DNA of 64,000 bases from Bidens hawaiensis (taxonomy: Eukaryota; Streptophyta; Magnoliopsida; Asterales; Asteraceae). The notes beneath the pieces are model-generated. The model saw nothing but the letters and a program-made list of their open reading frames with translations, ran no database searches and was not told where the DNA came from. The DNA is taken from NCBI GenBank assembly GCA_021521415.1, contig JAIQDT010007598.1, forward strand, positions 29,665 to 93,664, read 5' to 3'. Shown here in pieces: positions 5,907 to 64,000 of this stretch; position 1 is the stretch's first letter, and each line of letters starts with the position of its first letter. Position numbers and translations under genes: made by a program.

Positions 5907-5911
5907 GAATT

Positions 5912-6711
5912 TGAAGAAACACGGATCTACTCCCTTTAACGGGTCTTAGATCTGATGAGTCCACAGGGTATGATACGGATAACAACCAATACGATATAAG
6001 CCCAACTTCCCGAAGTCTAGTGACGTAAACCTGCAAAACCAACACCGTGAGCTCGTTACGGGAAGGACAAGAGGGGGTTCTTCCCGTAATCACCCTCCGG
6101 CGTAAGAATAAGTACAATTCTGATGAAGATAAAGTACTTAAGTATATAGAGAGTACAGTGGGAGTGCATGAATACCTCATGAAGATTGAGAGGGTATTTA
6201 TAGCCGAATGATGTGGGAAGGTGATTGGGCCAACTGTCCTTTTCAGAAGATGCTCTCGTAACCACCAGGAAACGTGTCCTCAAATGATTGGTTCAGCTAT
6301 ACATCGCATGTGCATGTATAACAACCTGGACACACGTCCTTATGTGATAGGATGATAAATAACCATGGCCATGTGCACGGTTATTACGGCCTTGCCAGAT
6401 GTCCTTTATTCATTGGCCGAGAGATCACGTATTGCCCAAGAAAACATATTGGTAAATCTTCTAGAAAGTAATTAGTTAATTACAGCTGTCCTGAGGCATT
6501 ACCTCCTGGTCATTTAGGCGGACGGTTACTTTGTCCCGCGGATGACTTCTGAGGGTGCCAGGATGCTTCCGCATAAGTCGTACGGGTGTTCCCTCCTTAG
6601 ACGGTTATGCGGGTGATTCATATGTTCCGTAGGTGTCTTACGAGGAAGAATCCTCTGACCCGCGGGAGGTTCTTAAGGGTATTTGGGTATTTTTGGTACC
6701 CTACCTCTATA
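5912..6711 (-). repeat. 3' LTR of Tat element
   Basis: On the plus strand it runs from TGAAGAAACACGG to CCCTACCTCTATA (800 bp). The purine tract follows internally. The LTR 5' end in element orientation is TATAGAGG rather than the usual TG, yet the TSD and the tract position support it. Confidence 0.85.
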
Positions 6712-6722
6712 AGTCCCCCAGT
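6712..6722 (-). other. Polypurine tract of Tat element
   Basis: AGTCCCCCAGT on the plus strand (ACTGGGGGACT on the element strand) abuts the 3' LTR. The second Tat copy has the same tract at 20339-20348 (CCGGGGGACA). Confidence 0.8.
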
Positions 6723-6944
6723 CCAGTGTTTCTTCCGCATGAAGCATTTTTATGCGGGTGAAATTTTGGACTTAAGGATGTTTTTGGGGATTTTTCTGAA
6801 ATTCGCAAGTTTTGGTGAAGATATTTTGTAATGGATAACCATACTGATAGTACGATGTGACAGCTTGCAGGTGCGTGTGTCAGGGAATGCGACGTTTATG
6901 CCGGCTGTCATTGTACCTGAATGTTCACCTTTTTGCTTTTTCGA

Positions 6945-7037
6945 ATTTCCCGCGTGACGTGGCATCTGTCGATTAGATCCCAATGTTCTCTCTCCACTGT
7001 TCATATCCCATCGCATTAATTGCGATGGGTATAAATA
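6945..7037 (+). promoter_or_regulatory. Promoter A of the Tat antisense gene
   Basis: Contains TTTCCCGCGTGACGTGGC (about 6944-6962; E2F-like TTTCCCGC plus bZIP-type TGACGTGG). Next comes a 23-bp inverted repeat CCCATCGCA-TTAAT-TGCGATGGG (7007-7029), and TATAAATA at 7030-7037. The inner repeat TGCGAT ends 3 nt before the TATA box. The ATG is at 7174, giving a 5' UTR of about 110 nt. The same arrangement recurs at promoters B and C. Confidence 0.75.
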
Positions 7038-7173
7038 GTGGAGGTTGCCTTCTTTTGGAAGTTTTATCGCCTTTGATTTCCAAATATTGTCTTTCTTTTT
7101 CTTCCTTAAGCTCCGATTAACCATTCAACTTTTTCTCACAATTGCTCGTTGTTCTTTACTTCTTGCTAAAGTG

Positions 7174-10024
7174 ATGGCTAATCGGTCTTTAACTCCAAAT
7201 ATTGACAAAGTGGAGGTCAACTGGGACCGATATGAGTATGAGGATTTGATTCGTACCTACGGTATTCCACCGGAATGGGGACCAGAGTTTCTCGCTGCCG
7301 GATCCATTGCCTGTCTGCCGCCACTTGGCAAGATGGCTGTATATGCTGACTATTTTACTTACCGGATGATCAACCCCGTTTTTTACTTACGAGATGTCGC
7401 CTCGGCTTGATCGATTTCCCGTTTTTTACCGGATGATCAACCGAGGTGGGTGGTTCAAGTGCCAGCCGATAGCCGATAGGATTATTAGCCACGTTACCGA
7501 AAGTGGTTCCAAGAATTGGCACGGTAAGTTCTTCTGGATCTCCGAGGATGTCGTGCCGGAGATAATGGTTCATCGTACGGCGAACGAGGCACTCCCAGAG
7601 ATTATCATAGCTTCTCATGAGGGTCGGGAGTGGTTCCGCGTCCTAGTTTCGGAACCAACCCCTATGCGGGCATTGCCCGAGGAAGCCCTTGTATGGGCGG
7701 GTATGAGCCGTTTGTGGCCATCTTCATTCTTGGAGCCTGTTTTCATCGGTTTAGACGATCTTAAGTTGCCCTCTTTCTTTTTCTTTTATTTGAAACTTTA
7801 TGATTGATTCTTTACGTTTTCTCTTTCAGGTCCAAGATCTATGCTAAACGCTCTTTTTGAGGACAGGGGTTGTACAAGGAAGAGTATTCGCGACGCGAAA
7901 GATAAACCCGCTCTTGAGAAGACTAAGAGCCACTTCCTTTTTCCTGTTAAGGTGTGTGCCGAACCCGTAGTTTCGGACGCTACCTTTCAATCAGGTGCTT
8001 ATGTTTTAAACCCTCCTCTGCTTAATGCCCTTACTTCTGATGGGGTAATCGTCGTTCTATCGTCGAGTGACGATTCTGCAACCCAAGAAGAGGGGAGCTC
8101 TGATGATGCTTCTAAATTTTCATCTGTCTCGCATCTATTGGCAGAATTGGAGCGAAAGAGGACCCTTCGGTCCTCTCAGGCAAGTGATGCAGGCTCAAGT
8201 TCTGTGGATGCCGGAGAAGAACCAGTAATAAAGAAACGGCGGACCCATCGCCCTAAGAAGCAAGGTGCCAGTCTTGCTGAACGCATGAAGACGATGGCTG
8301 GTAAGTATTATCATTTTGTATTTCATTATTTTGACCGATACTCTGATGTTGTTTTACTTGTGCAGATCCGTCGATGGTTGTTGGTGGGGGTGTTATATCA
8401 GACAAGCTACCATCGCCAACACCTGAGTCTGAGAAGCAGCCATCTCCTCCTCCGGGGAAGGAGAAGGAAGACAGGCCTCCTACCCCTCTTGCTGAGACAA
8501 ATGTAGAGAGTCCGAATCTCTAATCGGAGGTTAATGACTCCTTGGATTACCTCTTTGAGACTGGAGAAGCTACTGGTTTCCAAGAGAATGATCCCGTTGT
8601 GAACGAGGAAGGCTTCAGAACCCAGGAATCCCCTCCTCGTCCTCCTCCACAATTTTCTTTCACTTCTTCACCTCTACCCATGGGTGAGGGGGGAAGTTTT
8701 CGATTTGGGCGATCATTTCAAGACGCCGGGGGGGGGGGGGGGGGACACAAAGTGCTCTTGAACAATCTTCCTCTGTCCCTGTTCGCCTTCATGCATCAAG
8801 CTCTGACTATTACGGAGAGGCGAATTCAGGGGAGGACTACCACCTGTTTGTTCCTAACTGGGATATTGTTAACGGGTCTCTTTTTACTGACCCGGACGTT
8901 TGTATGTCGTTCATTAACCAGTGTGTGCCACCTGGGGAACGAATTCACTAGCGTAGGCGTTCTCGTCATGACGTTCATGTGGATTATTCCTCATCCTTGG
9001 CCAATACTTTAGCTTGTGGACAGGAAATACTACGTGAATGGCGAACTATGGGTGGGAAGCTGGGAGAGATGAGACGGGCTGCTGAAGATGCTAAAAAAGA
9101 AGTTGAGGAGCATCGTGCAGTGGCTAATACAGCAAAGTGGAAATTATCCGATGCAGAAATTGCCCTTAAGAATGAAAAAGACCGGCATTCCACTGCTGCT
9201 CGTCAATGGAAGGAAGTCTGTGAGAGGCAAAATTCCCTTCTTGACGCTGCCCGCGGCGATGCTCATCGGAAAAAAGAAGACCTAGCCAAAGCACTTGAGG
9301 CTAATTCAGCTCTGGAAAACCAAGTGACCCGCCAAGGTACCAAAATTCAAGAACTTGAAGTAGAGTTAAAGCTACAGAAGGAGCAGGTTGAGCTTAAGGA
9401 TAAAGGAGCTGCCGAAATACAAGCTGATAATGACTTGCTTTTGCAAGCACGTGAAGAAGCGGAAGCCCGTGCAACTAAAGCTTTAAATGACAAGAAAAAG
9501 ATAGCTGACGGGTTCCGGGAACTTCAGGAAAGGGCGGAACGTGCTGAGCAAGACCGTCGATGGTTGTTGGGTAAAGGAATTGACTCTGTAGGTTTCCTTT
9601 ACATATTTTTCATCGCCCATTGTAATGTTGTTGATGCTAATGAATCACTTTTCCTTTGTCAGGTCATTTGACACATTAAAGGGAGTCCTAAGCTAACTGA
9701 CAGGCCTTCCTGCTAACTGCCTCTTCCCAGGTTGGCCGCGTGACATGCTTTAATGAAGGGATGATGTATGCTCAGACCAGTCGCTCCTTTGAGGACCATC
9801 CGCTTCATGGTCTTGACGTCAAGCAGGAATACGATATGCGGATTAAAGAATACGACGACTTGGTATTTCCTTTGCAGGGTATGTTTCCAGAGTTTGCCAC
9901 AGCCAACGATGGTGTGCAACAATTGATGAACTATCTGGATGACGAGTCAGAGGATACCCCGCCTACCCCTCTTGAGGACACTCCATCAAAACCTCCGGAA
10001 GATGTATCAGCTCCTAATCCTTAG
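7174..10024 (+). pseudogene. Tat antisense extra gene, copy A (gypsy-type transposon protein with coiled coil)
   Basis: Starts MANRSLTPN. Contains the block PPEWGPEFLAAGSIACLPP then GKMAVYADYF, typical of the plant 'putative gypsy type transposon' family (Transposase_28 class). It has predicted introns at 7765-7829, 8301-8365 (GTAAGT..TGCAG) and 9592-9662. The C-terminal half (8979-9590) is a long charged coiled coil (KKEVEEHRAVANTAKWKL onward). The last exon (about 9731-10024) ends in an acidic, proline-rich tail. Compared with copy B, about 55 residues after YADYF are missing and replaced by filler. A 17-G run at 8728-8744 may break the frame. Function is unknown. It is antisense to pol. 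Decayed, but architecture and splice positions are still legible. Confidence 0.65.
8728..8744 (+). repeat. Homopolymer run of 17 G
   Basis: Seventeen consecutive G inside copy A of the antisense gene. A real frame change or a sequencing or assembly length error are both possible. Confidence 0.95.
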
Positions 10025-10283
10025 GATAGACTTAATCTTTAAGATTTGTAACTTCTTTTCATATTTTGTAACCATCTTTTGACTATGAATGAAAAGGAAC
10101 TTTTTGTCTTGTGAATATTATATTGTGTGTAAGATAATATCTTTTGTGAGATATTTTTGAGTTACCAACGATTTGAACTTTTGCAAATGGAATGGTTATG
10201 ATGACGTGGCGGAAAGAGAAATATCGTGGGACAACTGACATGACGTGTACAACGCCCTTTGACAGCATGTTCTCACTTTTTCG
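10025..10283. other. Spacer between antisense genes A and B
   Basis: 3' UTR-like AT-rich DNA after copy A (TTTGTAACCATC, ATGAATGAAAAGG), then the GACGTGGC-bearing upstream part of promoter B. No gene is seen. Confidence 0.5.
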
Positions 10284-10377
10284 TCTTTCCCGCCTGACAT
10301 GTCAATCATCTACTGGTCCTCTTTCTCTCTCTCTTCTGGCAGTCAGTCGGTCGCATTAATTGCGATGTGTATAAATA
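10284..10377 (+). promoter_or_regulatory. Promoter B of the Tat antisense gene
   Basis: TTTCCCGCCTGACATGTC (degenerate counterpart of the box in A), a CT-rich tract, the inverted repeat TCGCA-TTAAT-TGCGA (10351-10365), and TATAAATA at 10370-10377. Spacing from TGCGAT to TATA is 3 nt, as in A and C. ATG at 10522. Confidence 0.72.
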
Positions 10378-10521
10378 GATCAAGCCTGCTTTCCGTTCAT
10401 TCTTATCTTCCACTGATTTTTATTCTTTCCTTCTCAATAGCAAATTTGAGATTTCCTACTTCGATCTTCTAATTTTCAGATCTAGGTTTGACAAATCTGT
10501 AGTATAATTCCTCTTATTCAG

Positions 10522-13177
10522 ATGGCTGGTGAAAAGAAGAGCGCTCCTGCTATTCATGAGGTTGTTGTTAGCCTCAAGGAGAAAGATTATAATGACGTTG
10601 TAAATATATACGGTCTGGCACCGGAATGGGAGCCAAAATGTCCTGCCGAAGGTTCTATCGCTACTGACCCTCCGGCTAATAAAATGGCCGTATACACAGA
10701 ACACTTTATCTCAGGAAACCTTAGGTTTCCTGTAATGAAGTTCGTCCAGTCGATTTTGACGACATATGGGGTTCACCTTTCACAAATCCACCCTTTTGGG
10801 ATGTTGAGGGTTCGACACTTCGAATTCTGCTGTCAGGCTAGGGATCTTGAACCGTCCGTCAGCATGTTCGTTGTCTTTTACAAGATGACCTATCGAGACG
10901 GGTGGTATAGTTGGGCCACAACCGGAAAGGCGGTTATTGGCACTGAAGGGATCCGCAACCTCTATGGCTGGAAACTGAAATTCTTCTGGATCCGGGAAGA
11001 TGTCGTCCATTTTACGATGACCCGCCGAAAATCAGCCGATGGGATGCCAACAATTACCACTACCACAGCGGTGAACGCGACTTGGTACAAAACGTTGACC
11101 AGTACTCCAACTCCCATGTGCTCGATTCATGAGGGCGCGATGGTGAGTGCGAGGATGAGTCGTTTGTGGCCTTTTTCGGGATTGGAACCATACTTTGAGA
11201 AGCCCGACAAGAGTAAGGTTAATATTTCTTTTCTGAAATTCTTCTTTGATCCTGACTTCTGTTTTCTCGTATACAGGTGATGGTTCCGTTTTTAGCACGC
11301 TTTTGGACCGCGAGGAGGGTCTCATGGTGCGTCGTCCTATTGATCCAAAGGACGAGCCCATACTTGAGTGTCCCCGCCATAATTTTTTGTTCCCCGCCAC
11401 GCTTCGCTCGGAACCCGTAGTTTCTGAGGCGATGTATGCGAAAGGTGAGGAACTTTATTTGAAAGGTGAGGGTATTCTTCAACCCCGACCAATTACTACT
11501 GCTACCTCCAGTGGGGTGATAGTACTTCTTTCGTCTAGCGAGAAGTCGTCACTCTGCGAGTGAGGATTAACAGTTGATTCTACTAAAACCCTGCGTTCTA
11601 TTGTAGGTCTGACCCGCAAGCAAGACTCAAAGGCAACCACCAGCCAGGTGGGGAATGATGAAGGTGCTGACGCCACTGCCGAGGGTGATCATCAGATCGC
11701 TGATGATGTTAACGTCGAGGGAGAGCCTCAAGCTGTTGGCGCGGGTGTTTCCAAGGTAGATGGTAAACGTAAAGTTCAACCTACCAAGGTCGCTCCGTTT
11801 AAAAAGCAGAAAACGGTGAATTTGGAAGCCCGCCTTCATCAGCTTGCTTCCAAAGATATTTCTTTAGGTAAGCTTAACACTTTTCAAACTTGACAACTTT
11901 ATTATATCAAACATGTTTTTGATGGACGATTGTCATCTTACAGTAGCCCTAAAAGATTTTTCTGAAAGACGTTTTAGGTCTAAAGAGTTCAACTCTGCCT
12001 CCTACTCCACCATCATCACCACTCAACACCGCCAGTGACCCAATTGTTGTAACAGATACCTCTCCTCTTAAAGAGAAGGAAATTGGTAACTCCGAAGACC
12101 CCGTTATGTCATCCTCCTTCAAGTCCCATCATTTCAGAGATCAAGGAGGGGTTAGTGTGTTTTCCTACGGGCGTCAAGCATCTCCATCTCCTCGTGAGGA
12201 AGAGGCTGCAGTACATCATCCGCGCTGGTCTTTACGCTAAAACTCAACGCTTAGCGACGCAGATGTATGTTTTGAGTATTTGCGGAAAAGCCTTCTTCCT
12301 GCAGAGAGAGAACGCCAACGCAACCGCATTCACCAAGAGTTGCTGAACACTCATTATTACTGTATGGCGAATGCTGTTTCCACCAGCCAGGAGATATGCC
12401 GAGACTGGTTGAGTATGAATGAGGCGTGGGATGACCTTGAAGCTAAGGTGGTTGAGGCTAAGAAAGAATCCCTCGGGGCTATGGATGAGGCCAAGGAGAT
12501 CCGTCATGCTCTAGAAGCAGAGAAGGCTAATCGGTCTGCCGCTGAGGAAGCCAAAACTGTTCTCCAGCAGCAGCTGGATGAACGTGATGAATTGATAAAG
12601 ACTTTGAAGGCTGAATCAGCGGCCAAAGACGAACACCTTACCAACACTGCCACCAAGAACTGAGAACAGGCCCTGGAATGTGCTGGCCATAAGATGGAGC
12701 TCGTTCGAGCTGAAGCGGATAAAAAAAGGTTACTGGCGAAAGGAGTTCCCCAGGTAATTGTGCTTCTATGTATTCTTATGATCATTTGTGAAACTTTTGC
12801 TTATGTCTATATTTTACCAGGTTACTAGCCATATACGGGCAGGCGATGAACTTGGGAACTGTGTCGCCGTACTCTTAAACGCATCTTCCCAATCCGGTCG
12901 TCAAACAAGATTTCAGAAGGTTTCAGATTTGTTGAAAAGGGTAAACTTCGGGAGGAGTTTGTTTTGCACGGCCAAGATACTGCCAATATTCTTATTGAGA
13001 AAACCAAAACTTTTGACAACTTGAAGTTTTCTATTGAAGGGCAGATAACTGAGCTTGTAGATAAAGAAGATGGCATAGACCAGTTGAAAGCCCTTCTTGA
13101 GGCTAAAGAGGAAGATGAAGAATCGTAAGACGGTGCGGAAGACGAAAACACGGAAGGTGAGGATGTGGCATCATAGA
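10522..13177 (+). pseudogene. Tat antisense extra gene, copy B (gypsy-type transposon protein with coiled coil)
   Basis: Starts MAGEKKSAP. Exon 1 (to 11212) keeps the whole globular domain: APEWEPKCPAEGSIATDPP, GKMAVY-like NKMAVYTEHF, SGNLRFPVMKF, FGMLRVRHFEFCCQA, FFWIREDVV, MSRLWPF. Predicted introns are 11213-11276 (GTAAGG..ACAG), 11868-11943 (GTAAGC..TACAG) and 12754-12820 (GTAATT..CCAG), at positions matching copy A. 12280-12660 is a charged coiled coil with a TGA after TNTATKN. The last part (12821-13177) is readable with a frameshift and ends acidic (AKEEDEES, ENTEGEDVAS). The best preserved of the three copies, though not intact. Role unknown. An RNA- or DNA-binding or structural partner of the element is only a guess. 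Confidence 0.68.
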
Positions 13178-13500
13178 TATAGATTTATCTTCTCTGTAAT
13201 CATAATCTTTTTCTGTAATCCCTTTTGATAAATAATAAGTTTGTGTTGTCCGGTACACTTTGTCTTATGCTTTATAATATAAGTGTTTGTAGGATCTTTT
13301 TGTTTGTCAATAAATGATTACATACGAATGGAAACACATATTACATGATACTAATTTTTTTTTCATAAATTGGGCATAAGCCGGATAAAATTACAAGAGA
13401 TAACGTTGCATATTTTTGGCTAGTCTATATAGGCACGCAGGCCAAAAATGAAAAATAACTGCCATTGCTATATGTAACATTTCTTTAACTGTGCCACATT
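13178..13500. other. Spacer between antisense gene B and integrase
   Basis: AT-rich. Likely holds the convergent 3' ends of gene B (plus strand) and the pol transcript (minus strand). TTTGATAAATAATAAG at 13225 is a plausible polyadenylation context for gene B. Confidence 0.4.
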
Positions 13501-14913
13501 CCAAGTTCTAGGGATCTCCGTCCCATCCAACTTCTGTAACTTGTAATCACCTTTGGATAAAACTTTTCTTTATCTTATAAGGGCCTTCCCAAGTTGGGGC
13601 CAACTTGCCCGGTGGTTCCTGGCCAGAAGCCTCATTGTTGCGAAAGACAACGTCTCCAGTATCAATTCACATTTTTGGACCCGCGAGTTATAATATTTCT
13701 GCAGTTGGCGTTTTTAATTGTGCTCGCGGATCGACGCCAGTTCCCTCCGTTCTTCCAGGAGGTCAAGATTCATCCGGAGTTAGTTATTATTATCATCAAT
13801 CAACAAAACCCTTGCTGATGGAATCCCGATTTCGGCTGGGATCATGGCCTCAGTGCCGTAGGTTAGACTAGCGGGCGTCTCAGAGTTACTAGAATTCTTT
13901 TGGGTGAGTAAGGCCCAAAGTACATGAGGCAATTCGTCAACCCAACCCATCCGTTTAGTTCCTAACCTCGCTTTGATCCCTTCCTTGATTGTTCGGTTGG
14001 TCCGTTCAACCTGACCGTTTGCTTGTTGGTGGGCTACAAATGTAAAGTTTTGAATAACTTGAAGTTCTTTCAACCATTCTTGTAGTCCACTGTCCGCAAA
14101 CTGGGTCCCATTTTCACTTACCAGTTCCTGCGGAAGACCAAACCGGAAAATGATGAATTCCCATAGGAATTTCTTAATGCTCGATGCCGTGATCGATGCA
14201 ACTGGTTTAGCTTCCACCCATTTGGTGAAGTAATCAATGGCCACTATCAAAAATTTGACTCGTCCAGGGGCTTCTGGGAATGGTCCCATAATGTCGATGG
14301 CCCATTTTTGAAACGGCCATGCGGATGTCACCGGTATCAATTCGTTCTTTGGGCGCAAGGTATTGGGAGCATGACGTTGACAAGAATCACATTTCCTGAT
14401 TTCTTGCACAGCGTCTAAATGCATCCCAGACCAGTAATAGCCAACGTTCATGAGTTTTGCCACGGTCATCCTAGGACCCGCGTGTAAGCCAGAAATGCCT
14501 TCGTGGACTTCTTGTATTATGTAGTTCGCGTGTTCGGCGTCCTCACAGCGCAATAACGGTCCCAAAAACGACCTCCGGTACAAAATACAATCATTTATTT
14601 GGTAATTCAAGGCCTTGTGCTTGATTTTTTGAGCCGCGGCCTTTTCGGCTAGCAGAATTCCTGACGACAGATAAGTTATAATTGGTGTCATCCAAGATTC
14701 TCTGCCAGTCTGAATTACCAGAACTTGATTTTGCGGAACGGACGGGTGTTCAAGGACTTCAACACGAATATATTTAGCAAAGTGTTCAAAATTTGTTAAA
14801 GCCAACTTGCTAAGGGCATCCGCTGACTTGTTCTCGCTCCTTTTGATGTGAATAATGTTGAAAGAGGAAAATTGGCGAATTAAATCCTTTGTTTGGGACA
14901 GATATGAAGCCAT
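13501..14913 (-). pseudogene. Tat integrase (with C-terminal end of aRNH region)
   Basis: The 377-codon frame 14913-13780 reads through the end of the RNase H module (KSADALSKLA) into integrase. The zinc module H..H..C..C is seen in VHEGISGLHAGPR then CDSCQRHA. The catalytic core has WAIDIMGPFPEA (first D), GLPQELVSENGTQF and NGQVERTNRTIKEG (E). The second acidic residue is E where D is normal (SENG instead of SDNG), which should impair catalysis. Beyond 13780 the frame has stops, but PPGKLAPTWEGPYKI (about 13615-13570) shows the integrase C-terminal end. Confidence 0.85.
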
Positions 14914-15410
14914 GACATCATTTCTTGCTTCGTAAGTTCCTTAATCTGTCCCGCAATCAGCATAGAATCCACCTGTGCTTCCAAATGTTTCACCCCAAGC
15001 TTCTTGGCTATCCACAGGCCTTCAAGAAAAGCTTCATATTCCGCCTCGTTGTTAGTACTTTTGAAGTCTAACTTAATGGCGTATGTGAATTCGTGGCCTT
15101 CGATATTGACTAGTCTGAGGCCTACGCCAGATCCCTCACTGCTTGAAGCCCCGTCCGCAAAAAGTGACCAAATTTGTCCTTGTTCAGGAGGTGCTTGTGG
15201 TTGCTGCTCAATCAAACATTCTTTTTCTTTGTGTTGCGGAAGCTCAGTGACGAAGTCTGCCAACACCTGTCTTTTAATTGCTAGTCTGGGTTTATATTCT
15301 ACTGCATGTTCACCCAGCTCGTTGGCCCACTTCGCCAGTCGCCCAGACAATTCTGGTTTACTCAGAACGCTTTTGAGTTTATATCCAGTTCACACATTGA
15401 TGGGATGCCC
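14880..15410 (-). pseudogene. Tat archaeal-type RNase H (aRNH) domain
   Basis: Frame 15350-14880. WSLFADGASSSEGSGVGL supplies the first catalytic D, NNEAEYEAFLEGL the E, and QVDSMLIAGQIKE a further D. This second RNase H, placed between the native RNase H and integrase, is diagnostic of Tat elements. The frame is interrupted before integrase and restarts at 14913 with an overlap. Confidence 0.83.
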
Positions 15411-16474
15411 CTAAAAGTACATGCGGAGACGTCGGACGGCATAGACCAGTGCTAAAACAAGTTTTTCCAGAATTGAATATCTGGTCTCATGGTCTGACAA
15501 TGTCCTACTGACGTAATAGATCGGCGTTTGGACATTCTTTCTATCCGTCAATAATACAGCCCTGATGACAGTATCAGATGCTGATAAGTATAGCGTCAAA
15601 GTTTATCCCGCATAGGGTGCTGTCAACGTAGGTAACTCCATTAGGCATTTTTTGACCTCTAGGAATGCTTTCTCAGCTTCGCGGCCCATTTGAAGTGTGC
15701 CTTCTTGAGGCAATTTCTCAATGTTGAGACGAACGTATAAGATTTGGCTGCATGATTTTCTAAAAAACGATTCAGGGCAACCAATCGACCGTTAAGCGTC
15801 TGAACCTTTTTGAGGGAAGAAGGAGAAGGCATGCGGGCTACTGCTTGGATTTTATCTGGATTGGCCTTGAAACCCGCACCAATGACAATTACTCCAAGAA
15901 ATTTTCCTTCTTCCATCCCGAAGGAATATTAGGCTGGATTCAGCTTCATGTTGATACCCCTTAAGGTTTCGAATGTCTCTTCGATATCTCTCAACATATG
16001 ATCTTCTTCGATGCTTTTTATTGCCAAGTCATCCATGTAGACTTCCAGGTTTCGACCAATCTGGTTCTTGAATGCTTGATCCATTAGCCGCTGATATGTG
16101 GCACCCACGTTCTTCAATCCAAAGGGCATCATTTTATAGAAAAATGTCCCTTGGTCTGTACAAAACGCTGTTTTATCCTCATCACTCGCCGCCATGCGGA
16201 TTTGGTGATAGCCTTTATAGGCATCGAGGAAGCATTTAAACTTGAACGGGGCCACTTCGTCTACTATGAGATCAATTTTCGGCAACAGATAACAGTCTTT
16301 CGGACACGTCTTGTTCAAATCTTTGAAGTTTATACACATCCGCCACGTTCCGTTACTCTTTGGATCAATGACCGGATTAGCCACCCATGTCTGATATTTG
16401 ATTTCCCGAATAATTCCGGCATGAAGCAAATCTTGTACTTGATCATTCATGGCTTTCGTTTGTTCTGGGCCCAT
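15411..16474 (-). pseudogene. Tat reverse transcriptase and native RNase H
   Basis: RT frame 16474-15929 contains GTWRMCINFKDLNKTCPKD, MMPFGLKNVGATYQR and the catalytic EVYMDDLAIKS (YMDD intact). A stop follows MKLNPA. The thumb continues in 15916-15659 (GKFLGVIVIGAGFKANPDK, LNGRLVALNRFL). RNase H is in 15599-15411 (LTLYLSASD region, YYVSRTLSDHETRYS) and ends at a stop before the connection. At least three disruptions separate the pieces, so no functional RT is expected. Confidence 0.87.
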
Positions 16475-17066
16475 ATTTCGCTATTTCTGGACAATTGGTG
16501 TAAACATCAGGTTTACCCTTAATTTGTGTTCCGCAATGCTCCGTGGACACTAGTCATGTCTGCGGGTTGCCAGGCGAAGATGTCCATATTTTTGGTTAAT
16601 AACTGCTTTAAGAAAGTCCTCACTATTTCTGAAATAGCGGGTCTGATTATGACTGTCTGATCAGGGAATTTTTTTGTTCAAAACCCATTTTTCTAGTTCA
16701 GTCCTCTGAGTTTGTTTTGGAACTTTTCTAGGCTTTGAACTTTCAGTTGCGAAGCAGTGTCGATTGACATGAATTATTGCCACGCCGGTGCGGGTTGGAA
16801 CTCATACCGTGCCGTGAGCTATGGATGGGTGCGCATTAAAGTCACCAATTGCTTCCCGTCCTAGGATGATGTCATGTTTGGAAGTTGCGGGTAGGACCAA
16901 AAACTCAACTTCCTCGGTTCTTGAATGAATCCCATCACTAAGAGTGACCGGGAAGTGTTTTTGACAATGGAGTCCAATTGTTGGAGGACCGTGCTAAAAA
17001 AATTTGCTTGTTCTCATTACCAATCAGAGATCTTGTGTCAAATGATTTTGATACCTCCGCGTTCGG
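16475..17066 (-). pseudogene. Tat protease/connector remnant
   Basis: No open frame of length. On the minus strand around 16870-16690, fragments such as LGREAIGDFNAHPSIAHG and TRTGVAIIHVNRHCF match the usual linker between protease and RT in Tat elements, with stops. The protease DTG/DSG motif was not found. Confidence 0.5.
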
Positions 17067-17960
17067 CTAAAGTCTAGACCAAATTGTCCCCTTTGCCTGT
17101 TTATTAGGCCGTGGTGTTTGGAATTCTACTTTCAACTTCTTCTTTGAATTGTTATACCCCAAGGTTTTCTCAGCTCTGGCATACAACTTTGCCGCGGTCA
17201 TGATATCATCCCATTCTTGTGGCATCCCATCTCTGCCAGTTAGTGTGCGGATCAACGGATCACATCTAACATTCTTGCGGAAGGCACCGCAAAGGCATGT
17301 CTTTTCTGATTCCACCGATGTTCAGACTTTCATCATTGAATCGGGTAATGAAATCTTCCACAGATTCGTTATCTCCGCGAATAACGTCCAAAATTTCCGA
17401 CTGATCACGAGTGTGTTTCTTTTGCTGGCTAAACTGTTGGGAAAATTTTTTCACCAGGTCATCCCAGCTGGAAATTTGACCATCTGGTAATTTTTCAAAC
17501 CATTCACGTGCTGCCCCTGTTAGTGTCAATGCAAACATGTGACACCAATAGGGAAGCGTCCATATGCTAACACCACCTACCGTCACAAAGTTTTGGAGAT
17601 GATATCTTGGATTAGTCATTCCATTATATTAACCCACCGATGTAGGTATTTTAGCATTGACTGGAAAGTTGCTGTTGCGATGCGTGCTATAAACTTCGAT
17701 TTTTCAGCAAAGGATGCTGGGCGATACGGTTTAGTGAAATCCTCTTCCGCATCGCTATGATATTGAGTATGACGGACCACGTCCTACGGGCGACTGATCC
17801 CTTCCCGTGAACTCAGCCTGCTGTCACCAGTGTAGAAATTGAAGTCTCCTGGGTGATATGTTGAATCGTAACTATCGAGCTCATCTACGTAAGACGGCAT
17901 CTGCATGTCCACACGAGGACGGGGACGCAACCTCCGTACTTCGCAAAATTCATGTTCCAT
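17067..17960 (-). pseudogene. Tat gag core
   Basis: Frames 17619-17266 and 17315-17067 carry the retrotransposon gag signature: LTGAAREWFEKLPDGQISSW, then DDLVKKFSQQFSQQKKHTRD, then ESVEDFITRFNDESL. A frameshift joins the two frames near 17290. The segment ends KLKVEFQTPRPNKQ. 17960-17620 is the N-terminal side, with stops. Structural protein that would form the virus-like particle. Confidence 0.8.
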
Positions 17961-18491
17961 TTATTGACTATAACAGATTTGACTTCCTCTCACCGTTGGT
18001 GGAGGGGAAAGAGATCTCCTGGGCGATTCATCATAAGTCAGAGTGCGGGCATGGAAACATTGGTTGCGCACTCTAAGCTCGTATTCGGCTGTCACATTCT
18101 CTTGTTGGATACGGAGCCACTCCTCTGGAGACCGTGGTCCCCTAGATCTGGAATTATGTCGATCAGTTCTTGCCAGATCAGAATCGCCAGAATCATCTTC
18201 CAAACCCAATTTTGACTGAGTCCGGCGAGTTTCTCTCATAATTCGCCCGAGGTCACCCAAATTGGAACCCTCTGGTGCTGTGACACATCCCAAATCAGTA
18301 GGAGTTGGTCCAACTGGTACTATAGTACGCTCGAGGGTATGACCTCCAGGTGTTATATCAGCAGTACGTGAACCCGGAGCCGTGACACTTGCAAAAAAAC
18401 TTGAAGAAAAACCTTCAGGTGCTTCTGTATTAGTAACACGTGAAGCAGGTGAAGGGGTTCCTGGCTCATATCGTACAACGAAAAGGAACAA
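17961..18491 (-). CDS. Tat gag N-terminal leader region
   Basis: A 176-codon open frame just inside the 5' LTR. It is rich in Ser, Pro, Thr and Arg (LARTDRHNSRSRGPRSPEEW, SPRRSLSPPP), as often seen in the low-complexity N-terminal part of Tat gag. It is separated from the gag core by stops, so it is probably part of a broken gag. Confidence 0.55.
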   Translation of the reverse strand: MFLFVVRYEPGTPSPASRVTNTEAPEGFSSSFFASVTAPGSRTADITPGGHTLERTIVPVGPTPTDLGCVTAPEGSNLGDLGRIMRETRRTQSKLGLEDDSGDSDLARTDRHNSRSRGPRSPEEWLRIQQENVTAEYELRVRNQCFHARTLTYDESPRRSLSPPPTVRGSQICYSQ

Positions 18492-18531
18492 AAATTTATT
18501 GCTGTTCTAACAAAAGAACGGATGGAGTCAA

Positions 18532-19332
18532 TGAAGAAACACAGACTACCCCCCTAACGGGTCTTAGATCCGATGAGTCCACAGGGTAGGATACGGATAA
18601 AAACCAATACGGTATAAGCCCAACTTCCCGAAGTCCAGTGACGTAAACCTGCAAAACCAACACCGTGAGCTCGTTACGGGAAGGACAAGAGGGGGGGGGT
18701 CTTCCCGTAACCACCCTCCGGCGTGAGAATAAGTACAATTGTGATGAAGATAAAGTACTTAAGTATATAGAGAGTACAGTGGGAGTGCATGAATACCTCA
18801 TGAAGATTGAGAGGGTATTTATAGCCGAAGGATGTGGGAAGGTGATTGGGCCAGCTGTCCTTTTCAGAAGATGCTCTCGTAACCACCTGGATACGTGTCC
18901 TCAAATGATAGGTTCAGCTATACGTCGCATGTGCATGTATAACAACGTGGACACGCGTCCTTCTGAGATAGGATGATAAATAACCCTGGCCATGTGCATG
19001 GTTGTAACGGCCTTGCCATGTGTCCTTTATTCATTCGCCGAGAGATCACGTATTGCCCAAGAAAGCATCTTGGTAAATCTTCTAGAAAGTAATTAGTTAA
19101 TTACAGCTGTCCTGAGGCATTACATCCTGGTCATTTAGGCGGATGAATACTTTGTCCTGCGGATGACTTCTGAGGGTGCCAGGATGCTTTCGCATAAGTC
19201 GTACGGGTGTTCCCTCCTTAGACGGTTATGCAGGTGATTCATATGTTCTGCGGGTGTCTTACGAGGAAGAATCCTCTGACCCACGAGAGGTTCTTAAGGG
19301 TATTTGGGTCTTTTTGGTACCCTACCTCTATA
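18532..19332 (-). repeat. 5' LTR of Tat element
   Basis: Runs TGAAGAAACACAG to CTACCTCTATA on the plus strand (801 bp), followed by TSD GAATT. Retains conserved blocks with the 3' LTR such as ACCGTGAGCTCGTTACGGGA. The primer site on the element strand (after TTCTTCA) reads TTGACTCCATCC. I cannot assign it to a tRNA. Confidence 0.85.
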
Positions 19333-19337
19333 GAATT

Positions 19338-19496
19338 AGTTGTAAATAGGTGCCATATATTTTTAATAATGAAAAAATTAACCAAGTAAAAAATACTAGG
19401 GAACTTGAATAAGGATTGTTTATTAACTAGCCCACCTACAAAACGACTTTTCAAACTAAAAACTCAATTGACGAGCATATTGGCTCATTTACAACT
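19338..19496. mobile_element. Possible 159-bp MITE between the two Tat elements
   Basis: AGTTGTAAAT (19338-19347) is inverted as ATTTACAACT (19487-19496), and GAATT abuts both ends (19333-19337 and 19497-19501). The left GAATT is also the Tat TSD, so part of the symmetry may be coincidence. The interior is AT-rich and non-coding. Confidence 0.4.
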
Positions 19497-20572
19497 GAAT
19501 TCCTAGAAAAAAAAAGAAAAAGGAACATGAAAGCGTGCGACTTTTCTCTTACGCGCCAAGGACTCAGCCCAAACCAGTTTTGGTGCCATGTTGGTAGATG
19601 AAGAAACACGGATCTAATCCCTAAGGAATTAGATCAATGAGTCCACGAGATTCGGAATTACCAAAGTAACGATACAAGCCCAATCTCCCAAGTCAAATAA
19701 CCAAAACCCGAAAAACAACCACCGTGAGCTCGTTACGGGAGGGACAAGAGGGGGGCCTTCCCGTAACCATCATCCGATATGAGAATAAGTACTGATCTTA
19801 GGGAGAGAAAAGTATAAAGTATTGAGAGTAAGAGTGAAGTGTGAATGAATACCTCATGGAGATGACAAAGGTATTTATAGCCGAAGGGTTTAGGGAATAT
19901 TATTGGTCTAGCTGTCCTTTTCTACAAGATGCCTTTGTAACAACCTGGACACGTGTCCGCATGTGACTGGGAGAGATTAGTTGCCATGTGTACGGTTATA
20001 ACAAACTCGCCACCTGCCCTTTCTTCATTGGTCGTTACCTCACATGCTTCCTAAGGAAAGATCCTGATAAATCTTCTAGAAGGAAGTTAGTTAACTACAG
20101 TTGCACCCTCTGACGTCACCCTCTGGTCACCTTCGCGGGTGGGAATAATACCCTGCGGATGACTTCTGAGGACGTCTGGATTACCCCGCAGATAGTCTCT
20201 GAATCTTATTACTATTCTTCCTCTAACTTGAGTTATGCGGGTGATTAATATGTTCCGTGAGTGATCTTTGAGGGAGTCCTCTTCCACCCGCGGGTAATCT
20301 CTAAGGAATTTGGGTCCTTTTGCTACCCTACCTCTATATGTCCCCCGGTCCATTGTTTCTTCCGCGTGATGTTTTATGCCGGTGAAATTTTGGACTTGAG
20401 ATATTTTTTGAGGATTTTTCGATTTTTTTGTGTTTGGTGGAGATAGTTTGTGTTTGTGAGGATAAACATGAAAAAGGACGATGTGACAGCTTGCAGGAGC
20501 CGCATAGTTGACGTGAAGTCTATGTTGGCTGTCAACTGTACTCTACTGTACACCTTTTTTTCGCTTTTTTGG

Positions 20573-20666
20573 TTTTCCCGCGTGACGTGGCGTAACTTTA
20601 GTGGACCTTGTCTTTCTCTCTCCACTGTCAAAACTTCCATCGTATTAATTACGATGGGTATAAATA
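20573..20666 (+). promoter_or_regulatory. Promoter C of the Tat antisense gene
   Basis: TTTTCCCGCGTGACGTGGC (about 20573-20591), a CTCTCTCCACTGTC tract, the inverted repeat CCATCGTA-TTAAT-TACGATGG (20637-20657), and TATAAATA 20659-20666. Relative to A and B, C:G is replaced by T:A symmetrically in both arms. The 3-nt gap to TATA is kept. Confidence 0.74.
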
Positions 20667-20788: not shown

Positions 20789-21284
20789 ATGGCCGGCGAT
20801 AAGAAAGCTTCGTCCTCACCTTCTATCGAGATGGTTGAGATAAAATGAAAGCAATCTGAGTTTGAAAAACTTGTTACCACCTATGGGGTAGCACCGAAGT
20901 GGGAACAGGAGTTACCGGCTGTCGGTTCTACCGCCGACAAGCCTCCGTCCGGCAAAATGGCCGTTTACGCTGAATGTTTTTCGTTGGGGAATCTTCGGTT
21001 TCCGATAACCAAGTTCCTAGGAAACGTTCTGACCGGCCATGGGATACACCTGTTACAGGTTCACCCCTTCGACTTAATGCTAATTCGCCACTTCGAATTC
21101 ATTTGTAGGGCGAACAACATTGTGCCCAAAGTTGTTTAGTTCTCTGTTTCTTACAAGATGCATGATCGTGACGGGTGGTTTAATTGTGCCACTGTGGCCA
21201 AGAGGGTTATAGGCATTGAACCTCCGCACAGTGCTTATGATTGGTGGACGAAATTCATCTGGATGGGGGAGGATGTCATCCTAA
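20789..21284 (+). pseudogene. Tat antisense extra gene, copy C (truncated)
   Basis: Starts MAGDKKASSS and meets TGA after MVEIK. It then continues readable: VAPKWEQELPAVGSTADKPP, GKMAVYAECFSLGNLRFPI, FDLMLIRHFEF. A further TAG follows VPKVV. The 3' portion is lost at 21285. Same family as copies A and B. Confidence 0.7.
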
Positions 21285-22763: not shown

Positions 22764-24267
22764 TGTAACACCACATCTTTAACCCTATAAAATTCTAGCT
22801 AAAATAATTAACTTGTAAAGAATAGGTTCCAAATATGAATTTTGAAAACTTCACCCATCGCGATACTCGACGGGGTAAACATAAGCCCATCGCGTAGCGC
22901 GATGGCCTTGCACACAGACCCAGAAATGGGCGGCGTAGCAATATGCTACGGCCCAACTATAAACGGTCATCGCGATAAACGGTCATCGCGTATCGCGATG
23001 ACCATGCTGAGTCACTGGACACGTGTCCAACCACGTGTCAACACGTGGCACACAATATGACAGGCCACGTGTCATAAGCAGATAAGGCGACGACGACGGG
23101 GTAAAGAAAACCCATTGCGTATCACAATAAGTGGCAGATTCTGCCTATAAATAGAGGGTTACGGGATTGTAAATCATTCATCCCATTACACCTTCACTTT
23201 CACACACATAAGCATAGGGAAACGTGCCATGTTGACGCAGCAAGCCGATGTACCTTTATCTTGAAGTTCGTGCGAGAATAGAAGTTATAATCAAGTAGCA
23301 ATCACATAAGCGAGTAGATCAAGATCCCGCCTTTTTCTTATTATCATTCTAAGTATCCGATCTATGGTAGGAGTTATGTTTAAGTTATTTGAATTATCGC
23401 TTAAACAATCAATCGAGGCTATGGCCTTTAACCTTGAAAATATTTTGTAAACATTCACATTCATAAACGAGTTTTCATAAATGTTACTTCGTAGCAAAGT
23501 AATGTTAAACAAAGATATATTTTGACGGGCATGTAGTAACTGTAAGGGTGATATCGCTAGTAGTAAGTTTCTTGCCTAAGGAAAAGTAATTCGTACAAAT
23601 CTTAATCAACCAAGGGACCCGTTTACTTACCTGGAGAAACTTACCAACGTGTTATAACCTCTTAAGCTAAAGCATGCTACATCAAACGTCACATAAAAAC
23701 TAAGTGTTTTCATTCACAATCAAGGATAAACGATTTCAAGGTTAAGCTTAACAATCATAGCTTAATCAAAACACCATTCAGGTATTTATACAAACCTATT
23801 TATGTATAGGTTAAATATCATTCTCAATCATTCACAGTCAAGGTTTTCCAACGCCGACGGTACAGGTGAATACGTTAACCTTTTCAATCAATCAAAACAT
23901 ATTTATACTCGACAAAGATGAACGGGTGTTTGTCTTAACGAGTCAGTCAATGATTTCATGAGATTATGTGATCTCTAAAATGTTATAAGACAAAGTAGAG
24001 AATAAAATCAACTCAGACTGAATATGCATGTTTCTGGATCCAAATATAACTGTTAAGACTAATCAGTCAAAGGCTATGTAGCCGCTGGCTAAACGGTCAT
24101 GAATAGTTCTCTGTTCAGGGCTTTGTGGCTTGGAGAATACCGTTATATGTGTAGGGAAGTGGTACATATACTGGAAGTAGAAAACCTAAATTGAATGCAG
24201 ATGTCTTACATTAACTATCTTGGTCTTAGACGCCGAGTAGCAATACGATAAAAACCAACATTCAACT
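22764..24267 (+). repeat. 5' LTR/leader of a degenerate Ty3 element
   Basis: Begins TGTAACACCACATC, a common LTR start. It carries two perfect 17-bp palindromes of CATCGCGTAKCGCGATG (22888-22904, 22984-23000), four CACGTG boxes (23020-23071) and TATAAATA (23146-23153). The 3' limit of the LTR and the primer site were not found. The region up to the gag start is taken together. No matching 3' LTR is in the window. Confidence 0.5.
23020..23153 (+). promoter_or_regulatory. LTR promoter with four G-boxes and TATA
   Basis: CACGTG at 23020, 23032, 23042 and 23066, three within ACGTGTC and one within ACGTGGC, the plant ABRE/G-box form bound by bZIP factors. TATAAATA at 23146-23153 lies about 75-125 bp downstream. 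Confidence 0.6.
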
Positions 24268-45767: not shown

Positions 45768-46683
45768 ACTATATGATAGGTGATTAGACGTAACGGCCAA
45801 GTATAGTTTTGCTTTAGGGTCTTATACGTGATGCCTATACGTGTTACCTTACTTGATTGTTCATTACACTTGTATATTTATTTGCTTATTTATTTCATTT
45901 AATCCCAAAAATATACACCTGCACACACTCTCATAGTATTCTAAGGTATCCTTACCATACCACAAAAAGTAGGTTTTTATGATAATTTTTATGGATCACA
46001 AACTTAATTTGGATCCCGTTATTTATAATCTTTTTAAAACTTGACCCTATAACGGTTTTGTTGCCACTTTAGGGGGGGCGAAACACTATGAAACGATCAT
46101 TTGACATAAAGATTTCAAGAATCGAAGTTGATTTACTTATCTAGGATGACTGAATTGTAGTGTTGGTCTTCTAAGCCAACGAACCGTGTTATACATGTCA
46201 ACGAATTTAAGTTGTCGAATGCAAGCATTTCGGTTGCCTCCTTATATTTTTGTTGGAATCATAAGAGCCATGGTGATACGTGGACTAATGTTTTCAACAT
46301 CTCGATTACCTCATTGTTTACTTGTTATTGTTATTATTACGATATTTGGGACAAAACGTATAAAACACGGTAATTTCGTGCACATATTCAACTCCCCACT
46401 TTACCACGATTTTTAAGATTTAATGTTGGGACAACTAGTCATGGTTATTCATGCAAGTTTTCCCACTTTTAAATCCTAACACATTATTTTCAAATCTCAA
46501 ATATTTAAATTATTTAACATTTCATCTATTAACTTGATTTACTAACTAAAGAAAAAAAATTCTAACATTTTCATCCTCATAACTCTAGGACTCATAATCA
46601 TTAACACTCCATGTTTACATATCATCCTCATACTTATTATCAATTACCCCAAAGTTATGTAATTTCTCTTTAGTTATTTTAGA
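45768..46683. other. Untranslated leader of Tekay unit A
   Basis: AT-rich leader between primer site and gag. Nothing else seen. Confidence 0.5.
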
Positions 46684-61715: not shown

Positions 61716-62655
61716 TTAGAAGTTTGTTATATAAAATTTAAAACAAAAATCATGTCATTGTGTCTTTTCGCACACCATTGCGTCTTTTTCGCTTATCATT
61801 GTGTCTTTTCGCACACCATTGTGTCTTTTCGCTTATCATTGTGTCTTTTTTCATCATTGTGTCTTTTCACACACCATTGTGTCTTTTCGCTTATCATTGT
61901 GTCTTTTTTCGTCATTGTGTTTTTCCCATTCCATTGTGTCTTTTCGCACATCATTGTGTTTTTTCGCACACCATTTTGTATTTTCGCACACCATTGTGTC
62001 TTTTCGCTTATCATTGTGTCTTTTTCGCCATTGTGTCTTTTTGTCATTGTGTCTTTTTGCACACCATTGTGTCTTTTCATTTATCATTGTGTCTTTTTTC
62101 GTCATTGTGTCTTTTCGCACACCATTATGTCTTTTTTCGCCATTGTGTCTTTTCGCACACCATTGTGTCTTTTTTCGCACACCATTGTGTATTTTCACAC
62201 ACTATGTGTCTTTTCGCTTATCAATATGTCTTTTTTCGTCATTGTGTTTTTTTGTCGTTGTGTCTTTTAACTCATCATTATGTTTTTTTAAATACTAATA
62301 ACACCATTGTGTAATTATAATAATATGTAAAAATAATGATAAAATAACAACAAATTATCTAATACATAAAACAAAATGATTAATACGTGTTACACAATAA
62401 CTTGAAACGTAAAACACACTGGTGAATTCGTATAACACAATGACCTAAAATGTAAGACACAATGGTGAATACGTATAACACAATGACCTAAAACGTAAGA
62501 CACAATGGTGAATATATATATATATATATATAACACAATGACTTGAAACGTAAAACACAATGGAAACAACATATTACACAATGACACAATGAAAAACAAA
62601 AAACACAATTAAAAAACCCATTAGTTTTTTTTTTATTTTTATATAACAATATGAT
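61716..62655. mobile_element. Candidate foldback element with inverted CATTGTGT/ACACAATG arrays
   Basis: Left arm: about two dozen CATTGTGTCTTTTCGCACAC-type units of about 20 bp (61755-62280). Right arm: about eight ACACAATG words in 43-bp units (62390-62600). The outer ends share TTGTTATATAAAA (about 61725) and its complement TTTTATATAACAA (about 62637). No transposase. The long frames on both strands only translate the repeat. Confidence 0.55.
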
Positions 62656-63547: not shown

Positions 63548-64000
63548 TTAAACGACGAAACGAGTCCGAAAACGACGAAACGGGTCGTTTTTTAACAAAC
63601 TTTTTATTCAAAAACGACGAAACGGGTCGTTTTTTAACAAACTTTTTATTCAAAAACGACGAAACGGGTTGTTTTTGAACAAACTTTTTGTTCAAAAACG
63701 ACGAAACGGGTCGTTTTTTTAACAAACTTTTCACTAAAAATCGACGAAACGGGTCGTTTTTTAACAAACTTTTCACTAAAAAACGACGAAACGGGTCGTT
63801 TTTTAACAAACTTTCGTTCAAAAACGACGAAACGGGTCGTTTTTTAACAAACTTTTTGTTCAAAAACGACGAAACTCGTTTTTTAACAAACTTTTCACTA
63901 AAAAACGACGAAACGGGTCTTTTTTTAACAAATTTTTCTTTCAAAAACGACGAAACGGGTCGTTTTTTAACAAACTTTTCACTAAAAACGATGAAACGGC
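63548..64000 (+). repeat. Minisatellite, about 40 bp x 12, each unit a hairpin
   Basis: Unit AAAACGACGAAACGGGTCGT then TTTTTAACAAACTTTTTATTC. Each unit has an inverted repeat AAAACGAC-GAAACGG-GTCGTTTT (8-bp stem). About 12 units are seen and the array runs off the right edge. The minus-strand frame with repeated FVKKRPVSSFLN is a translation artefact. Confidence 0.93.

Follow-up and report, generated by a model that had tools for sequence, protein, structure and literature searches.

A candidate promoter module with a TATA-proximal dyad upstream of antisense Transposase_28 genes in Tat/Retand elements of Bidens hawaiensis

What is the function, if any, of an inverted repeat that recurs just upstream of the TATA boxes of antisense genes in plant retrotransposons? 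The question is raised by a 64,000-nucleotide stretch of the Bidens hawaiensis genome (assembly GCA_021521415.1, contig JAIQDT010007598.1, positions 29,665 to 93,664 of the forward strand; hereafter, the window), in which a Tat/Retand-type Ty3-gypsy long terminal repeat (LTR) element (element 1) carries two antisense genes, A and B, and a second, truncated element (element 2) carries a third, gene C. We propose, at a probability of roughly 0.55, that the three inverted repeats (dyads) belong, next to the TATA box, to a single conserved RNA polymerase II promoter for the Transposase_28 (TRP28) gene that Tat/Retand elements carry in antisense, and that this promoter would be read by host factors, with a dimeric factor at the dyad.

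A first-pass annotation of the window had reported three inverted repeats around TTAAT ahead of TATA boxes, and all three are present on the plus strand as read from the sequence. Dyad A (CCCATCGCA-TTAAT-TGCGATGGG, 9-bp arms, 7007..7029) directly adjoins its TATA box, TATAAATA (7030..7037); dyad B (TCGCA-TTAAT-TGCGA, 5-bp arms, 10351..10365) precedes the same TATA word at 10370..10377; and dyad C (CCATCGTA-TTAAT-TACGATGG, 8-bp arms, 20637..20657) precedes it at 20659..20666. The loop TTAAT is identical in all three dyads, and the dyad centre is fixed, with ATTAATT starting 15 nt upstream of the TATA box in 3/3 promoters. The constant spacing claimed in the annotation thus holds for the distance from dyad centre to TATA box, whereas a gap of “exactly 3 nt” appears only when the arms are trimmed at ...CGAT, because the perfect arms of A and C are longer (9 and 8 bp) than had been claimed. 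Similarly, the “three copies of a Tat antisense promoter” are indeed three promoters, but those of A and B belong to two genes of one element rather than to two element copies.

The dyad and TATA box are the downstream end of a longer module on the plus strand. An E2F-type site, TTTCCCGC, lies at 6946..6953 in promoter A, 10286..10293 in B, and 20574..20581 in C. One base further on stands TGACGTGG in A (at 6955) and C (at 20583) and TGACATGT in B (TGACATG at 10295), giving TGACRTG in all three promoters, 75–76 nt upstream of the TATA box. We take TGACRTG to be a bZIP-type site. A CT-rich tract, CTCTCTC, stands 42–43 nt upstream of the TATA box, and the order of the module is E2F-type site, TGACRTG, CT-rich tract, dyad TCGYA-TTAAT-TRCGA, and TATAAATA. 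Upstream words had been described as common to A and C: this is so for TGACGTGGC, in place of which B has TGACATGTC, whereas TTTCCCGC belongs to all three promoters and not to A and C alone. With both strands of the window counted, the word TTTCCCGC occurs three times, 84, 84, and 85 nt upstream of the three TATA boxes. This number is not above chance (mean 1.3, maximum 5 in 60 simulated windows), and it is therefore the placement before the TATA boxes that constitutes the evidence. The word is listed in a catalogue of plant E2F sites (PMC1779545).

Conservation of the block was assessed by placing the 30-nt dyad and TATA block of A, ungapped, against every position of the window. It matches C at 28/30 and B at 27/30 positions, compared with 20 for the reverse strand of A itself and 19 for the best unrelated place. 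Counted in a fixed register from the TATA box, A and B agree at 9/10 bases in every block between −20 and +9 (three blocks) and at 8/10 in both blocks between −90 and −71, but at only 1–5/10 per block from −70 to −21. The proteins of genes A and B are far more divergent, with 25/54 identical residues in one stretch and 51/135 in another (E 4e-28), for an overall range of 38–46%. Since the proteins are only 38–46% identical and the dyad and TATA block nevertheless agrees at 27/30 positions, the module looks constrained, and we read the likeness of the two promoters as constraint and not as recent copying. Order, spacing, and sequence of the module are conserved in both paralogues, diverged as they are, and in a second element.

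Chance expectations were computed for the arms. Under a first-order Markov model, the probability that an inverted repeat (loop ≤10) lies no more than 35 nt from a chosen position is ~0.003 for arms of at least 8 bp, ~0.0009 for at least 9 bp, and ~0.21 for at least 5 bp. Among the 26 TATAAATA boxes of the window, arms of at least 8 bp occur at A and C only, with 5 bp at B and 7 bp as the best of the remainder. The window contains 28 perfect inverted repeats (arms ≥8, loops ≤10, arm G+C ≥30%). Dyads are therefore not uncommon in themselves, and it is their place and their sharing that make those of A, B, and C special. Dyad B alone is unremarkable, but its match to A is not. When the 17-nt dyad word was sought in the window with up to 3 mismatches, one additional place was recovered (46327–46343, 3 mismatches).

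We infer from this arrangement that the promoter is used and that host factors act on it. A host E2F factor would act at TTTCCCGC, 84–85 nt upstream of the TATA box, a bZIP factor (following our assumed assignment of the site) would act at TGACRTG, 75–76 nt upstream, and a dimeric host factor, perhaps of homeodomain type, would bind the dyad next to the TATA-binding protein. Host control of the antisense accessory gene of the element would result, possibly tied to cell division or tissue. The homeodomain-type dimer is our leading guess because GCATTAATTGC, the centre of dyads A and B, is one base off the palindrome preferred by HD-Zip IV proteins, GCATT(A/T)AATGC (PMC3645734), which it matches at 10/11 positions by eye.

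Several observations weigh against this proposal. All comparisons are based on three copies from one 64-kb window. Raw gapped identities of the A/B flanks are 26/39, 83/122, and 61/85, and those of the A/C flanks are 179/217, 30/38, and 89/111, so that 28/30 in the A/C block is not clearly higher; the case from A/C conservation is accordingly weaker than that from A/B. With respect to the factors, TTTCCCGCC, the form found in B, is called the non-cell-cycle E2F word in the same E2F catalogue (PMC1779545). The centre of dyad C, GTATTAATTAC, matches the HD-Zip IV palindrome at only 8/11 positions by eye, the loop TTAAT has no symmetry, and the L1 box, TAAATGYA, has 8 matches in the window but none in the three promoters.

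Whether the symmetry itself is selected is a question that three sequences can neither prove nor refute, and the case for it is thin. Within the inner eight pairs, A and C differ at two positions, which are the two sides of a single pair and remain complementary to each other. For two changes to hit the same pair, the chance is 0.067 with 8 pairs, 0.11 with 5, and 0.059 with 9; with a complementarity factor of ~0.39, taken from the transition share of the flanks, the combined chance is about 0.02–0.04. Among the outer four pairs, there are four differences between A and B, all one-sided (3 left, 1 right). The ninth pair shows a one-sided difference between A and C; T is common to B and C there, and A may be the changed copy. 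Overall, all three copies retain the inner five pairs, with one symmetric change, while the outer four lose Watson–Crick pairing in B. In the pair count, two B cells are unpaired, and four cells lie on U–G/G–U or on a pair differing from these on one side. The first-pass annotation had called the arms covarying, which is true of one symmetric base pair between A and C but not of the outer-arm differences between B and A. The latter instead follow the pattern of independent arm substitutions that the annotation itself had named as refuting, albeit in three copies and not in many. Covariation as strong proof was consequently rejected, for it would amount to a single symmetric pair. The selection for a dimeric factor site that had been put forward is partly borne out: the evidence supports a promoter that is conserved and has an element close to its TATA box, but the support for selected symmetry is thin.

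These data bear on a serious, though in our view unlikely, alternative, namely, that what is conserved is an extended core promoter without symmetry (~TTAATTRCGATGNGTATAAATA), in which the symmetry of A and C is in part inherited and in part accidental and is not under selection. Promoter B is suggestive in this respect, because it keeps most of the TATA-side right arm and has a diverged left outer arm, with none of its differences from A being symmetric. All three copies have the same asymmetric loop, TTAAT, and a both-sides change in 1/9 pairs, as observed, was reached by 176/500 shuffles (a comparison of three rows, with little power). However, all three copies also retain TCGYA, the inner half on the left, and its single change is symmetric. 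Furthermore, 92.6% of the 27 cells pair in the named register (G–U counted), compared with 22–44% when the arms are slid by 1–3 columns, and a 9-bp arm at a given place has the low chance of ~0.0009 given above. On balance, we prefer the promoter with a dimeric site to the asymmetric core.

Rather improbable, in our estimate, is a second alternative that concerns the identity of the factor and in which the TRP28 protein would bind the dyad as a dimer and autoregulate its own antisense promoter. DNA binding has been predicted for TRP28 (PMC11963269), and the dyad word stands before the three genes of the family and at no other place in the window within 2 mismatches. Conversely, a site common to diverged genes is compatible with any factor, the AlphaFold model of gene B built on the three-row alignment was unusable (mean predicted local distance difference test score 28.8), and no solved structural relative emerged (one match, E 0.51). 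A still broader scenario, to which we give little credence, would extend this idea to a portable Retand antisense-promoter cassette (E2F site, TGACRTG, dimer site, and TATA box), more strongly conserved than its gene, in which a dimeric factor, perhaps TRP28, co-evolved with the dyad through a half-site change from GCA to GTA, so that each element family would control its own antisense gene.

Finally, it is very improbable that the dyad functions through a hairpin formed in the sense genomic RNA or through a DNA cruciform, because, despite a strong RNA fold in A (z −6.98/−6.76 on the two strands) and a moderate one in C (z −2.79/−3.40), B folds no better than its shuffles (z +0.26/+0.52; 117 and 139 of 200 shuffles at least as good), and the dyad, lying upstream of the TATA box, should not be contained in the antisense mRNA. 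The RNA hairpin was hence rejected as a shared function, and the core-promoter hairpin entertained in the initial annotation is unlikely as a common one. Several compensated pairs combined with a stable fold in all copies, the hallmark sought for a conserved hairpin, were not observed, given the 1/9 pairs and the z values of B. A protein site is more likely than an RNA hairpin as the function of the dyad. As a separate observation, the hairpin predicted for A continues outward via CTCCACT/AGTGGAG (6991–7044), which places the TATA box within the stem; this extension is not predicted in B or C.

Element 1 spans 5912..19332 on the minus strand and was delineated by its LTR pair and by reverse transcriptase and integrase domains on the minus strand. 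Self-comparison of the window placed its LTRs at about 5912–6711 and 18532–19332 (~800 bp each), with 93.9% identity between them over 803 columns, and the element is bordered by a GAATT target-site duplication (5907–5911 and 19333–19337). The LTRs of ~0.8 kb and the internal region of ~11.8 kb both fall inside the ranges given for Retand elements (LTRs of 315–1,194 bp and internal regions of 7,380–12,869 bp; PMC11963269). The two genes antisense to pol are flanked by the integrase stretch on one side and the 3′ LTR on the other, and gene B, antisense to reverse transcriptase and integrase, contains PF04195; an antisense TRP28 open reading frame (ORF) between pol and the 3′ LTR is characteristic of Retand/Tat elements (PMC11963269), and we use the lineage name on account of this gene. 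Gene A (7174..10024, plus strand; extent inferred from stop-to-stop frames) is a broken paralogue of gene B, the first open stretch of which (10522..11280, plus strand) matches Transposase_28 (PF04195) in Pfam with an E value of 4.8e-8 and 33.5 bits (cut-off, 26.2). No Pfam match was obtained for the two pieces of gene A that were tried. Together, A and B appear as a tandem pair of antisense TRP28-type genes at 7007–13180, with one promoter module each.

Element 2, the truncated carrier of gene C, was recognized by an LTR at 19599..20338 (minus strand), which in self-comparison aligns piecewise with the LTRs of element 1 at 68–76% identity. Gene C (20789..21280, plus strand; right end judged by eye) is both stop-broken and truncated. 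Its Transposase_28 match lies below the curated cut-off (E 2.4e-4, 21.7 bits), and its protein shares 48/95 identical residues with that of gene B.

Other repeats in the window include a segment at 22846–23130, upstream of another TATAAATA (23146), with four copies of a CATCGCG..CGCGATG-type motif (including perfect hairpins at 22887–22905 and 22981–23003 and a decayed copy at 23113–23128) and four CACGTG boxes. This segment may be the LTR promoter of a different element; self-comparison of the window revealed no partner LTR for it. By eye, the dyad arms (CCATCGC) share a 7-mer with its GCGATG hairpins, a link that we dropped. In addition, self-comparison detected an array of self-similar repeats at 61753–62289, and tandem repeats of ~42 bp with inverted repeats AAAAACGAC/GTCGTTTTT occupy 63569–64000.

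Copies of the module and relatives of its genes were also sought beyond the window. A pattern scan of viral_contigs yielded 78 stretches, 10 of which had at least 3/6 arm positions complementary (best, 4/6); these 10 were rejected, as none has more than one unbroken pair beside the loop and hence none carries the dyad. The corresponding scan of genome_contigs gave 15 matches, bacterial or archaeal as judged by record title, which we took as chance, and no plant copy. Searches of viral_contigs with gene B, the integrase stretch, and the three-row alignment returned no relatives. A protein search with gene B alone likewise found no relative, and one with the three-row alignment recovered 3 short proteins (P0001–P0003; source code lgn, contigs of 1.1–2.1 kb).

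The combination of E2F site, dyad, and TATA box seems to be new, given that no description of it was found among the matches listed for open-access papers, judged by titles and the starts of abstracts. If real, a recognizable promoter with an E2F site and a TATA-proximal dyad would help to locate TRP28 genes through their control region and would predict the timing of TRP28 gene expression, and it would provide a defined DNA probe for binding by TRP28 or a host homeodomain factor.

The setting of the module has close parallels. The TRP28 genes of Retand elements occupy the same antisense position between pol and the 3′ LTR and encode the same Transposase_28 domain, and a survey found an antisense TRP28 ORF in 97% of recently active Retand clusters (PMC11963269). 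That survey recorded 57 TRP28 ORFs longer than 600 bp in 63 clusters, or about one per cluster, in a table that scores presence only (PMC11963269), whereas element 1 has two TRP28-type genes, each with a module. Maize Grande has an antisense accessory gene, gene23, with a promoter of its own from which it is transcribed, as recounted in PMC7264820, which is the situation proposed here. The parts of these two accounts that were covered do not describe a promoter motif, dyad, or TATA box for TRP28 or gene23 (PMC11963269, PMC7264820). The HD-Zip IV palindrome resembles the centre of A and B at 10/11 positions and differs from the Bidens sites in the 8/11 match of C, the missing L1 box, and the extension of the dyad past the 11-mer. 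A text search of open-access papers for GCATTAATTGC returned 7, none of them on plant homeodomain sites as judged by title. A structural analogue comes from Sirevirus Ty1-copia elements, which carry palindromic repeated motifs upstream of the LTR TATA box (PMC2829016). There, too, diverged plant retrotransposons share a motif with dyad symmetry a short way upstream of a TATA box, but the Sirevirus motifs mostly have a CGG-CCG core and are clustered, either within the LTR or ahead of ENV (PMC2829016), whereas the Bidens promoters each have one dyad, without a CGG-CCG core by eye, in an internal antisense promoter outside the LTR.

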